In this document: positions 58,362-63,110 of the stretch, piece after piece | How positions within the stretch are numbered: the stretch's first letter is position 1 | Layout: each line of letters opens with the position of its first letter | NCBI RefSeq assembly: GCF_002156965.1 | Contig: NZ_CP021324.1 | Span: 1,066,681-1,130,680 of the forward strand | Direction of reading: 5' to 3' | DNA length: 64,000 bases | DNA from: Candidatus Nitrosomarinus catalina | Lineage (GTDB): Archaea; Thermoproteota; Nitrososphaeria; Nitrososphaerales; Nitrosopumilaceae | Made by a program: the position numbers and the translations under genes | The notes under the pieces: model-generated | What the model was told of the DNA's origin: nothing | Databases searched by the model: none | What the model saw: the letters and a program-made list of their open reading frames with translations, nothing else

Positions 58362-59468
58362 ATGGTTGAAGATTCTCAAGATGGCGTAATTTCATTGGTT
58401 AATTCAATTTTTGATGTGGAAGAATTTACAAAAACAGAATTTACATTACAATTTAAAATTAATAATTCAGAATTTCAAACAAAATTTGAAGATTTAGCCA
58501 GAGCCTTAGAAAACATGAGTTATGTTTGCAAAGTAGTAAAAAATGATGAAGGGATATTGATTGAAGTTCAAAAATTTACAATAAAAAAACCAAGAAAATG
58601 GCTCAATGCAACATGGACACCACGAATATTGTTTGCAGTTGTAATTGGATTTGTAATGATTGACGGGTATTATAGGACATCAGGTACAAATTCGATTATA
58701 GAGATTGGAGAGCCATTTGAAATGGCAATTGTGTATACACTTGCACTTTTAGGAATTTTAGGAACACATGAACTTGGTCACATCATTGCAGCTAAATCAC
58801 ATAAACTAAAAACAAGTTGGCCTTACTTTATTCCAGGGTTGCCAATAGTTGGAATTCCTACATTTGGTGCATTCATTCAATCAAAAGGATTGACAATTAA
58901 TCGTAATATCTTATTTGATGTAGCTATTGCAGGACCAATTGCAGGACTAGCAATTGCAATTATTGTATCACTTTATGGTGCATATACGGCTCCAATATTA
59001 GATCAAGAAATTGCAGAAGGACTATTTGCAGAACAGGTTTTGGTTGAATGGGAACAAGGAGAACCATTACTAATGACTGCAAGTTTAGCTGTGTTTGGTA
59101 AAGGAGGTCCAGGTCACGAAGTAATTATGACACCAGTAATGTTTGCAGCATGGATTGGATTTTTAATTACATTTTTGAATTTACTTCCAGCATGGCAACT
59201 TGATGGTGGACACATGGCAAGAACTCTTTTGGGTCAAAAAATTCATAGATATGCCACATATGGTAGCATGTTGATACTTGTTTTGTTAAATTATTGGCTC
59301 ATGGCAATCTTAATTTTAGTTATGTCAATGAAAAACCCAAGTGCAACACCACTTGACGATGTCTCACCTCTTACAAAAAATAGAAAACTGGCATATATCG
59401 GAATTATAGTATTAGCGGTTTTGTGTGCACCATTACCATCAGGATTGTTTTCAGGTATTTTACCTTAG
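58362..59468 (+). CDS. site-2 protease (M50 membrane metalloprotease)
   Basis: A 368-residue intramembrane zinc protease. An N-terminal soluble domain of about 80 residues precedes several helices. The HELGH motif (136-140) lies in membrane segment LLGILGTHELGHIIAAKS, and the second ligand is in NLLPAWQLDGGHMA. Members cut membrane-bound regulators or clear signal peptides. Substrate is unknown. It converges on the LarA-like gene (9-nt overlap). Confidence 0.92.
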   Translation: MVEDSQDGVISLVNSIFDVEEFTKTEFTLQFKINNSEFQTKFEDLARALENMSYVCKVVKNDEGILIEVQKFTIKKPRKWLNATWTPRILFAVVIGFVMIDGYYRTSGTNSIIEIGEPFEMAIVYTLALLGILGTHELGHIIAAKSHKLKTSWPYFIPGLPIVGIPTFGAFIQSKGLTINRNILFDVAIAGPIAGLAIAIIVSLYGAYTAPILDQEIAEGLFAEQVLVEWEQGEPLLMTASLAVFGKGGPGHEVIMTPVMFAAWIGFLITFLNLLPAWQLDGGHMARTLLGQKIHRYATYGSMLILVLLNYWLMAILILVMSMKNPSATPLDDVSPLTKNRKLAYIGIIVLAVLCAPLPSGLFSGILP

Positions 59469-60542
59469 AAAGAGTCTAGCACCATCTGCAACTACTGTAA
59501 CTTTTTGTCTTGCACCCTGTGTTTTTAAAATATAATCCATAGAATATTTTATTCCAGGTAAAGAAATCATATCAAGTTTTTTTGCATAAAATTCAGGTAG
59601 AATTGAAACTAGGCCAATTTGAAAATTCTTTTGTATTTCAGAAAGATAAAGTAAATCTTCCATTCCGTTAATGTATTTGGTAGGATTCCTTAACTGTTCA
59701 AGTGTTAATCTATCTTCAATATATTGTTGAATAGCATCTGAACCTAAACCACTTTTACATTCAGCAACTAAAATTGCCAACCCATCTTTTTTGATAGCAT
59801 TTGAACAATTCCAAAGAGACGATAAAGAATTTCCCAATGTGTCGTTACTTGCATCTTTACCAGTACTCATGATTATTGTTTTATGCTCACCAATATCTTT
59901 GATTGAATTTGATTCTAGAGTTTTTGTTGTAGAAAGTGTTTTTGAAGGATGAGCAATTGTAAAGTCAAGTATTCCTTCAGAATTTGCAATAATTTCAATT
60001 GCTTGTATCTCAAAATTATCTGCAAATTTTTTTGCCTCGGTTAAACTTTCTGTATATTGTCCAGGTGTTGGAAGATTACTTTGTCTTTTAGCATAAGCTG
60101 AAAGCATAGATTCTTCTCCGAATTTTTTGATTAAACGAGTTGCAACAGTTTCATATCCAAATAAACCATCAAATCCCATCTCTCCCATAAAAACAAGATT
60201 AGAATTTTTAATTTCAACATCATCAAATTCGTTTATTGAACTACCTTCAGGCAAACCAGATTTAACTAAATTTAGGATTTTTTTGTCAGTCAAAATTTTT
60301 GGAAAGGGTTTAGATTTTTGTTCGCACAGAGTGAATAGACTTGTAATAATTTTGAGAATCGATTTGGAGTTATGTAAAACTACTAGTTCCATGGGTTTGG
60401 ATAAATCCAAAGTATTGAGTTTCTCCATAATTGCTTGATCATCTAGAATTTTGCCATCAGAATCAATTTTTTGCTCTAAATTCTCTGCCTTTATATCCAA
60501 AACAACGTCTGTAATCCCATAATTTAACCAAATTTCAGGCAT
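59460..60542 (-). CDS. divergent LarA-like protein lacking nickel-pincer ligands
   Basis: A 360-residue protein from the ATG at 60542 (PEIWLNYGITDVVLDI). It follows the layout of lactate racemase LarA. The start resembles the ELPYG-type N-terminus. The FGYETVATRLI region (about 140-160) aligns with LarA's PGIAGYETI. The C-terminal part KKDGLAILVAECKSGLGSDA resembles LarA's GGIIILVAECxEGLG, and VTVVADGARLFLR the end of LarA. The GGPK-type lysine that carries the cofactor and the nearby histidines (H108/H174/H200 in L. plantarum) are not seen. It is therefore a LarA-fold paralogue, possibly with a different activity. It is 42 kb from larBCE. Confidence 0.7.
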   Translation of the reverse strand: MPEIWLNYGITDVVLDIKAENLEQKIDSDGKILDDQAIMEKLNTLDLSKPMELVVLHNSKSILKIITSLFTLCEQKSKPFPKILTDKKILNLVKSGLPEGSSINEFDDVEIKNSNLVFMGEMGFDGLFGYETVATRLIKKFGEESMLSAYAKRQSNLPTPGQYTESLTEAKKFADNFEIQAIEIIANSEGILDFTIAHPSKTLSTTKTLESNSIKDIGEHKTIIMSTGKDASNDTLGNSLSSLWNCSNAIKKDGLAILVAECKSGLGSDAIQQYIEDRLTLEQLRNPTKYINGMEDLLYLSEIQKNFQIGLVSILPEFYAKKLDMISLPGIKYSMDYILKTQGARQKVTVVADGARLFLR

Positions 60543-60592
60543 AATAGATACTAAATACAAACCAAAATAAATCCAATGTAGTGAATTTTGAT

Positions 60593-61198
60593 ATGGAGTT
60601 TGTGAAAGAATTTGTGACCTTTTTACATCAAAAGGAGATAATTAAGTTTGGAGACTTTACACTAGCCAGTGGGAAAAGTAGTTCATATTATGTTGATTTA
60701 AGATTAGTTCCTAGCTATCCTCATGAATTTAGGATGATGGTAAAATATCTGGAAAATCAAATAACTGAAGACATCGGACTGGAAAATTTTGAAAGTATTG
60801 TTTCTGTACCAACAGGAGGATTAGTTATTGCTTCAGCATTAGCAATTGAAACAGTAAAACCACTAATCTATGTAAGAAGTAAACCAAAGGATTATGGAAC
60901 TTCAAAATCGGTTGAAGGAAAAATTCATGAGAGTATGAGAGTTGTGATGATAGATGATGTTGCAACTACGGGAGGTTCAGTTGTAAATGCAATAAAATCA
61001 CTTACAGAAGTAAATGTTCCAGTTAAAGATGCATATGTAATTGTAGACAGAATGGAAGGAGCTACTGAAGCCTTGAAAGAACTTGGAGTAAAAATGCACT
61101 CAATTCTAAATATCTTACAAATTACAGAAATATTATATGAACAAAAATTGATTAATGTAGAAATTTTAGATAAGGTAAAAAAGCAAATTAGTAAATAA
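60593..61198 (+). CDS. pyrE: orotate phosphoribosyltransferase
   Basis: Joins orotate to PRPP in pyrimidine synthesis. From the ATG at 60593 it is 201 residues (an upstream GTG at 60581 is in frame). Motifs: FTLASGKSSSYYVDLRLVPS near 20-39, VPTGGLVIASALAIE, the PRPP loop VVMIDDVATTGGSVVNAIKS near 122-141 and IVDRMEGATEALKELG. Length is normal. Confidence 0.92.
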   Translation: MEFVKEFVTFLHQKEIIKFGDFTLASGKSSSYYVDLRLVPSYPHEFRMMVKYLENQITEDIGLENFESIVSVPTGGLVIASALAIETVKPLIYVRSKPKDYGTSKSVEGKIHESMRVVMIDDVATTGGSVVNAIKSLTEVNVPVKDAYVIVDRMEGATEALKELGVKMHSILNILQITEILYEQKLINVEILDKVKKQISK

Positions 61199-61310: not shown

Positions 61311-61384
61311 TGGGCCCGAAGGGCTTCGATCCCTTGGCTCACCGGTTATGAGCCGGTTACTCTACCAAGCTGAGTTACGGGCCC
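61311..61384 (-). tRNA. tRNA-Met (CAT), elongator type
   Basis: Acceptor GGGCCCG pairs with CGGGCCC, discriminator A, CCA not encoded. Anticodon stem ACCGG/CCGGT encloses CTCATAA, so the anticodon is CAT. The G1-C72 pair and the lack of three G-C pairs next to the anticodon argue against an initiator. A C34-modified tRNA-Ile2 cannot be excluded. T loop is ATCGAAG, with A at position 54 in place of T. Confidence 0.9.
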
Positions 61385-61425: not shown

Positions 61426-62058
61426 TTAACAGTATTCTTCATAACAACTGTCAAGTAACAAATTTTGTGCTGAAACAGATTTTTCAGCAATTTCAATTAG
61501 GTCACTCGTATCAGCATTGGATTTTTCAATGATATTTCTCCAAGATGCTGCATGTCTAATGTCAGCTTCGGTATGGAGTTTGAAATATTCAGTTGCTTTA
61601 TCAGTTGTAATTTGATAGAATTCAGATAATCCATCTAGTTTTGTTTGACTAATTTTTGGGATTTCTTTTTCAAATGCATACATTGCACATGCACCACTAT
61701 CAAAAGTATTCATTAATTCAGCCAAATCAGATACAGCTTGATTAGTTTTTTCTAATCCAGAATATGGGATTAATTCGTTTTCAGAAATTCCAAGTTCTCC
61801 TGCAAAACTAATCCAAGGTTTAATGTGATCAGATTCTTCTTGTTGATTGTCAACTAGTTCTGAAACTACAGAATTAGGTGCTTTTTCAATAATTGGTGCC
61901 ATAAATTCAGGAACAGCTTTTACAAGTTGGAAATATTCTTTTGAATATCCAGCTAATGATTCTTGAGTTAATTTACCATCAGACCACATTTCATAAAATG
62001 GGTGTTTTAGGAGACTTCTTTCTTCAATAATTTTATCGATTCTTTGAATTATATTCAT
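61426..62058 (-). CDS. TenA/PqqC-fold diiron protein, CADD-like candidate 4-aminobenzoate synthase
   Basis: A 210-residue heme-oxygenase-like helical protein. The start KHPFYEMWSDGKLTQESLAG (18-37, with Tyr22) recalls CADD of Chlamydia and NE1434 of Nitrosomonas. Candidate metal ligands are in QQEESDH (Glu74/75, His78), AFEKE (Glu130) and HTEADIRH (His162, Asp166, His169). The spacing Glu130-His162-Asp166-His169 equals that of the CADD ligands, and Lys140 lies where the reactive CADD lysine would be. CADD converts its own tyrosine into 4-aminobenzoate. A cysteine-bearing tail (DSCYEEYC) is unusual. It lies next to tRNA-Met and tRNA-Glu. Confidence 0.8.
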   Translation of the reverse strand: MNIIQRIDKIIEERSLLKHPFYEMWSDGKLTQESLAGYSKEYFQLVKAVPEFMAPIIEKAPNSVVSELVDNQQEESDHIKPWISFAGELGISENELIPYSGLEKTNQAVSDLAELMNTFDSGACAMYAFEKEIPKISQTKLDGLSEFYQITTDKATEYFKLHTEADIRHAASWRNIIEKSNADTSDLIEIAEKSVSAQNLLLDSCYEEYC

Positions 62059-62139: not shown

Positions 62140-62215
62140 GTTCCAGTGGTGTAGTCCGGTCAAGCATACTGCCCTTTCAAGGCAGTGATCCCGGGTTCAA
62201 ATCCCGGCTGGAGCA
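62140..62215 (+). tRNA. tRNA-Glu (TTC)
   Basis: Acceptor GTTCCAG pairs with CTGGAGC (one G-T pair), discriminator A, with CCA encoded directly after it (62216-62218). Anticodon stem CTGCC/GGCAG encloses CTTTCAA, so the anticodon is TTC. The T arm is CCGGG-TTCAAAT-CCCGG. It is the only one of the five tRNAs in the window with an encoded CCA. Confidence 0.95.
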
Positions 62216-62258
62216 CCAAGATTTAATTACTAATGAAGAGGGGTTTTGATCAATTATC

Positions 62259-63110
62259 TTGGACAGGAAAAATATCGAAATTAATCCTCTACTAGAGACA
62301 TATGGGGAATATATTAAAAAAATTGATCTTGCTTTGGATAAAGAACTAGCACTATATTCAGAATCTGAATTTATTGAACCTCTAAAATATTCATTAGAAG
62401 GTGGTAAAAGAATTAGACCAATAATTTTGAGTTTATCTGCAGAGAGTATAGGGAAAATAGATGAAAATGTATTGGCAGCATCATGTGCTGTAGAATTTTT
62501 ACATATGGAATCAATCATTCATGATGATATCATAGACGACGAAACGATGAGAAGACAAAAAGATCCTTTTCATGTAAAATATGGTTACAATACGAGTGTC
62601 TTAACAGGAGATTTTGTTTTAGGATTAATTCTTGCAATATCATCAAGATTGGACAATGCAAGAATTACAAAAGATTTAGCAACTACTGCTATGCTAATGA
62701 GTGAAGGAGAAATTATCGAAGGAAGATTAGAAGAAAGTGGAGACATTACATTTGATGATTACTTGAAAGTGATAGAATACAAAACTGCAACCGCATTTGA
62801 AGTTGCAGCAAGAATCGGAGGAATAGTAGCTGGTGGAACTGAAGAAGAGATTGAAGCATTGACAGGATATGGAAAAAATCTTGGAATTGCATATCAAATA
62901 AGAGATGATTTACTAGATTGGAAAAATGAAGAAAAATTATTTAATTTACTAATTAAGAAAAGTGTTGATCCAAGAGATGGGTTTAACAAAATGGAAGAAT
63001 TGTTGAAAGAATATTCTGAAAAGGCTAGAACATTTTTGAGAAAAATTCCAGATAATGAAGCAAAAATGAATCTAGAAGAATTAATTAAATTTACTTCATT
63101 TAAGGCATAG
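62259..63110 (+). CDS. polyprenyl diphosphate synthase, second prenyltransferase
   Basis: A 283-residue trans-prenyl synthase, starting at TTG. The first Asp-rich motif is IIHDDIIDDETMRRQ near 87-101 and the second IRDDLLDWKNEE. GGKRIRPIIL near 48 binds the allylic substrate. At five residues before the first DD it has Glu instead of an aromatic residue, so chain length is not blocked as in the GGPP synthase upstream. It may make a longer chain, for example for menaquinone. It ends 11 nt into the overlap with nuoN (convergent). Confidence 0.85.
   Translation: MDRKNIEINPLLETYGEYIKKIDLALDKELALYSESEFIEPLKYSLEGGKRIRPIILSLSAESIGKIDENVLAASCAVEFLHMESIIHDDIIDDETMRRQKDPFHVKYGYNTSVLTGDFVLGLILAISSRLDNARITKDLATTAMLMSEGEIIEGRLEESGDITFDDYLKVIEYKTATAFEVAARIGGIVAGGTEEEIEALTGYGKNLGIAYQIRDDLLDWKNEEKLFNLLIKKSVDPRDGFNKMEELLKEYSEKARTFLRKIPDNEAKMNLEELIKFTSFKA

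Follow-up and report, generated by a model that had tools for sequence, protein, structure and literature searches.

The closest described relatives of the gene analysed here are two self-sacrificing 4-aminobenzoate (pABA) synthases: CADD of Chlamydia trachomatis (CT610; PDB 1RCW and 8VA9) and NePabS of Nitrosomonas europaea (NE1434), the latter organism being a proven user of such an enzyme. NePabS sacrifices Tyr25 and Lys159; Tyr41 is essential to it, Tyr45 and Trp99 assist, and Phe148 and Phe177 govern metal preference, as the change F177Y by itself switched the enzyme to Mn/Fe (PMC11965152). The published CADD/PabS family has been described as bacterial. In the literature searched, we found neither a paper describing a CADD-type enzyme in archaea nor an answer to the question of how ammonia-oxidising archaea form their pABA, and, as most subscription papers and preprints lay outside that search, priority is uncertain.

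The window, a stretch of 64,000 nucleotides from Candidatus Nitrosomarinus catalina, carries a gene that, judging from its sequence and by analogy, very probably encodes a self-sacrificing pABA synthase of archaeal type, that is, a Glu-x2-His variant of the known bacterial enzyme. We favour this reading because of the homology, the CADD fold, the invariant residues, the absence of PabB and PabC, the presence of dihydropteroate synthase (DHPS), the association with amoA and the folate gene cluster of some relatives; from the same analogy, we infer that the archaeal protein would synthesise pABA. The gene and the codons discussed below, the latter assigned by alignment, are the following:

61426..62058, minus strand: CADD/PabS-like HDO protein of 210 aa, candidate self-sacrificing 4-aminobenzoate synthase, ATG start
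61993..61995, minus strand: Tyr22, equivalent to CADD Tyr27 and NePabS Tyr25 (the tyrosine whose cleavage yields the pABA ring); invariant in 48/48 sequences and not found in the PqqC/TenA-like outgroup
61945..61947, minus strand: Tyr38, equivalent to NePabS Tyr41 (essential)
61933..61935, minus strand: Tyr42, equivalent to NePabS Tyr45 (proposed radical path)
61834..61836, minus strand: Glu75, predicted metal ligand, equivalent to CADD Glu81, 3 rather than 7 residues before the histidine
61825..61827, minus strand: His78, predicted metal ligand, equivalent to CADD His88
61813..61815, minus strand: Trp82, equivalent to NePabS Trp99 (proposed radical path)
61669..61671, minus strand: Glu130, predicted metal ligand, equivalent to CADD Glu142
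61639..61641, minus strand: Lys140, equivalent to CADD Lys152 and NePabS Lys159 (amine donor)
61585..61587, minus strand: Tyr158, equivalent to CADD Tyr170 and NePabS Phe177 (metal preference switch); Tyr throughout the sampled archaea
61552..61575, minus strand: His162-x3-Asp166-x2-His169, the last three predicted metal ligands
61429..61446, minus strand: Cys205 and Cys210, close to the C terminus, of which Cys210 is common to most bacterial homologues

No second copy of the gene was found in the same genome, and no viral or plasmid carriage was found either.

The protein matches the Pfam domains Haem_oxygenas_2 and TENA_THI-4 and the NCBIfam subfamily model of the CADD family, TIGR04305 (E 2.6e-47, 161.2 bits), and a sequence search of the PDB retrieves three structures of 4-aminobenzoate synthases (9pj4, 1rcw and 8va9) at E ~1e-31. 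The curated cut-off of TIGR04305 (200) is not reached, which counts against assignment to CADD/PabS. An AlphaFold model, for which 25 bacterial homologues were aligned with the protein, has a mean pLDDT of 95.3, with its lowest values at the Glu75-His78 stretch, and predicts a heme-oxygenase-like helical fold with CADD nearest: the four best structural matches in the PDB are all CADD (TM 0.93, 1.4-1.7 Å), the next is PqqC (TM 0.86, 3.0 Å), and PqqC, TenA and UndA lie at roughly 2.7-4 Å. The CADD-like nature that the original prediction ascribed to the protein is thus borne out by profile, sequence and model. Identity as PqqC was rejected on the score of the equivalog TIGR02111 (only 34.8 bits, the cut-off being 240), on the tree and on the residues, and identity as TenA on its outgroup placement in the tree and the missing sacrificial residues. 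Both share the TENA_THI-4 fold family with the archaeal protein and differ from it in their weak scores and, in archaeal outgroup relatives, in the lack of the sacrificial residues.

Besides the fold, the archaeal protein shares with CADD the set of three histidine and three carboxylate ligands, the sacrificed tyrosine, the essential tyrosine, the amine-donor lysine and a tyrosine at the Tyr170 position. By contrast, identity is ~30%, the Glu-His spacing is 3 instead of 7, Phe129 stands where CADD has Tyr141, and the host is an archaeon. With NePabS and its homologues in Nitrosomonadaceae, it shares all catalytic residues and a cysteine in the C-terminal region, and Phe129 aligns with NePabS Phe148; identity is, however, 33%, the archaeal protein is without an extra loop, its ligand spacing is shorter, and Tyr158 replaces Phe177. 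The cysteine tail had been considered foreign to the known family. This holds for Cys205, which occurs in 0/19 bacterial homologues, but not for Cys210, found in 16 of the 19.

When 29 archaeal and 19 bacterial homologues (48 in total) are aligned, 23 of the 210 columns are invariant, and among them are all 11 residues that have been assigned a part in binding metal or forming pABA. The hypergeometric probability of finding all 11 in the invariant set is 2e-12, and that for the five non-metal ones alone is 1e-5, both values being rough because the sequences are related. Tyr22 and Lys140 occupy the positions of the sacrificial tyrosine and the amine donor lysine of CADD (Tyr27 and Lys152), and Tyr38, Tyr42 and Trp82 those of the essential or assisting aromatic residues of NePabS (Tyr41, Tyr45 and Trp99). 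In fact, the residues that mutagenesis of NePabS tied to pABA production are all invariant in archaea (PMC11965152). The tyrosine previously noticed in an HPFY motif is Tyr22, and Glu130, His162, Asp166, His169 and Lys140 are where they had been placed, aligning with CADD E142, H174, D178, H181 and K152. Five PqqC/TenA-like proteins of the same phylum lack Tyr22, Tyr42 and Lys140, and two of them keep the metal ligands; therefore, having the fold does not entail having this residue set.

These residues also bear on the idea that the protein is an HDO oxygenase or oxidase that, like UndA, BesC and AetD, uses a small external substrate, with pABA coming from elsewhere. Such a protein would have the same fold family, and the carboxylate-x2-His spacing resembles that of AetD (Asp76/His79). 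Nevertheless, the Tyr/Tyr/Tyr/Trp/Lys set is invariant even when distant archaeal members are included, and in two relatives the gene lies clustered with folate genes (see below), so we consider this explanation unlikely. UndA, AetD and other HDO oxidases and oxygenases use substrates from outside the protein. The pABA synthases, in turn, are marked by their sacrificial Tyr/Lys set; the comparison is one of features and not of aligned residues.

Six ligands are predicted from the alignment: Glu75, His78, Glu130, His162, Asp166 and His169. The four named in the original prediction are correct, but the set was incomplete, as Glu75 and His78 had been omitted. In the alignment with CADD, the counterpart of Glu75 is Glu81. 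This first ligand pair is arranged as Glu-x2-His in 29/29 archaeal homologues and as Glu-x6-His in 19/19 bacterial ones, a four-residue deletion. A spacing unlike that of all sampled bacterial homologues counts against a plain CADD/PabS assignment; Glu-x6-His is, however, a habit of the bacterial members that function is not known to need. A precedent for short spacing is found in the diiron HDO AetD, whose ligands include Asp76 and His79 (PMC10654658). At the position of Tyr158, all 29 archaeal homologues have tyrosine and 18/19 bacterial ones phenylalanine. Because the archaea have this tyrosine and F177Y went to Mn/Fe in NePabS, a preference of the archaeal enzyme for Mn/Fe can be offered as a prediction and no more.

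If the archaeal pABA synthase works as CADD and NePabS do, two metal ions held by the six ligands would activate O2, and the oxidising equivalent would pass through Tyr158, Trp82, Tyr42 and Tyr38 to Tyr22. The Cα-Cβ bond of Tyr22 would then be cut, leaving a glycine behind; the carboxylate oxygens of pABA would come from O2 and its amine from Lys140. The yield would be at most one pABA per protein molecule, and DHPS would use the product for folate. Such a mechanism predicts modified peptides, HPFYEMWSDGK being converted to HPFGEMWSDGK (Tyr22) and Lys140 appearing in ISQT(aminoadipate)LDGLSEFYQITTDK. The proposal is directly testable, partly from existing proteome data.

In the tree, all archaeal sequences (29) group in a single clade (99/93) apart from the bacterial sequences, and archaeal and bacterial sequences together are separated from the outgroup (100/99). 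The bacterial sample consists mostly of Nitrosomonadaceae, without the branches of Chlamydia, Rickettsia and Chloroflexi. PqqC/TenA-like relatives L149, L150 and L151 (genomes G403 and G410) come from one family of the order, and two of them retain the metal ligands without the sacrificial residues.

The genome that contains the window, a single contig that is 98.9% complete, was examined by family searches. Its only Chorismate_bind (PF00425) protein lies within trpE-G-D-C-B and is TrpE, as it carries PIAGT, the anthranilate-synthase motif that is distinguished from PIKGT. Its two Aminotran_4 (fold-IV) proteins are both over the branched-chain transaminase (IlvE) cut-offs and not those of PabC, and neither PabB nor PabC was found by these searches. 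The standard pathway, for which a check had been suggested, is therefore missing. DHPS, by contrast, is present above its cut-off and adjoins an MptE-like 6-hydroxymethylpterin diphosphokinase, so that the host combines folate synthesis with the lack of pabB and pabC. With DHPS present and PabB and PabC absent, there is a consumer of pABA without a known maker other than the CADD-like gene, and the suggestion that this gene would explain the pABA supply of an archaeon devoid of the usual pab route stands. Taken with the fold and the invariant residues, this supports a candidate self-sacrificing synthase as far as sequence can tell. Methanopterin was rejected as the pABA sink in this genome, since no match was obtained for beta-RFAP synthase, through which pABA enters methanopterin.

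Two further explanations concern the supply of pABA. According to the first, TrpE and TrpG would give some aminodeoxychorismate, a branched-chain transaminase would serve as the lyase, and the CADD-like protein would do something else. TrpG-type amidotransferases can indeed serve both complexes, and TIGR00566 spans both, but the anthranilate-synthase motif of TrpE, its place in the trp operon and the IlvE-type scores of both transaminases make this highly improbable. According to the second, pABA or folate would be imported, or made by another archaeal route, and the CADD-like protein would be a redox protein with a different role. There are relatives with DHPS that have neither PabB nor the CADD-like gene (G407, G411, G414, G423, G428, G430, G432, G400 and G408, all of them members of the order without a second PF00425 protein), and, because of them, the absence of PabB alone does not imply a CADD-like enzyme. 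Nevertheless, DHPS and the MptE-like diphosphokinase indicate de novo synthesis, and the gene is accompanied by DHPS (strong match) in 107 of its 109 carriers, which leaves this second explanation very little probability.

The distribution of the gene agrees with the pABA-synthase reading. Among 397 genomes of the phylum, there are 82 strong matches, all within the order of the window; three weak matches outside it have 23-24% identity, and the two that were read (L062 and L063) lack Tyr22 and Lys140. In 150 genomes of the order, 109 have the gene (strong match), 110 have archaeal AmoA, 104 have both and 35 neither, and none has more than one PF00425 protein. All 29 closed (single-contig) amoA-positive genomes carry the gene. 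The six amoA-positive genomes without it, which count against the reading, are drafts of 120-720 contigs from one family, and a profile search recovered no missed copies in them. The gene is, consequently, a near-universal trait of amoA-positive archaea, and this, the link with folate genes in relatives and the distinctive ligand spacing go beyond the original prediction. A similar pattern is seen in bacteria: N. europaea, N. halophila, N. eutropha, Nitrosospira and Nitrosovibrio have PabS and exactly one Chorismate_bind protein, so that ammonia oxidisers of both domains present the same PabS-type gene and single-PF00425 signature.

One of the two carriers without a strong DHPS match, G398, has a beta-RFAP synthase instead, with no DHPS over the cut-off, and is a methanopterin-type relative. 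There (L145, 4155-5958 and 5902-6705), the CADD-like gene and its neighbours are transcribed divergently, the neighbours resembling, by eye, genes of a corrinoid protein and its methyltransferase.

Few microbes on Earth are as abundant as ammonia-oxidising archaea. We regard it as a serious but tentative possibility, towards which we do not quite lean, that they depend as a group on a distinct pABA synthase that requires O2, works only once and has a re-spaced, probably Mn/Fe, metal site. Their folate would then be tied to oxygen at the price of one protein per pABA, and the enzyme would predate the split of the ammonia-oxidising lineages and be shared in kind with ammonia-oxidising bacteria. 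If so, cells that are among the most numerous on Earth would use up a protein for each pABA they make, and could do so only with oxygen, which would bear on protein cost in slow-growing oligotrophs and on how folate synthesis changed as the lineage turned aerobic. Additionally, a second, differently spaced metal site would become available for the study of a poorly understood reaction.

The surroundings of the gene include the following features:

62259..63110, plus strand: polyprenyl diphosphate synthase, divergent neighbour, conserved, not a folate gene
60581..61198, plus strand: pyrE-like phosphoribosyltransferase, conserved neighbour, not a folate gene
59460-60560, minus strand: LarA C-terminal-domain-like protein (weak similarity to lactate racemase LarA), adjoining pyrE in most of the family
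61311-61384, minus strand: tRNA-Met, flanking the CADD-like gene
62140-62218, plus strand: tRNA-Glu, flanking the CADD-like gene

These neighbours (nuoN, polyprenyl synthase, pyrE and the LarA_C-like gene) are conserved in the family, and, therefore, there is no sign of recent insertion. None is a folate gene, and this counts against the pABA-synthase reading; the gene of Chlamydia CADD, in contrast to that of the window genome, is clustered with folate genes. Such a cluster does occur in two amoA-negative genomes of the same order, G442 and G444 (L147 and L148), where the CADD-like gene is followed in the same direction by folB and folK, with a convergent folP, and the two CADD-like proteins have 64% mutual identity. 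Look-alike proteins of ~190-200 aa are also encoded near folP, both in the window genome (L045, 7753-8337) and within the G442 and G444 folate clusters (L147, 3767-4327, and L148, 7812-8423).
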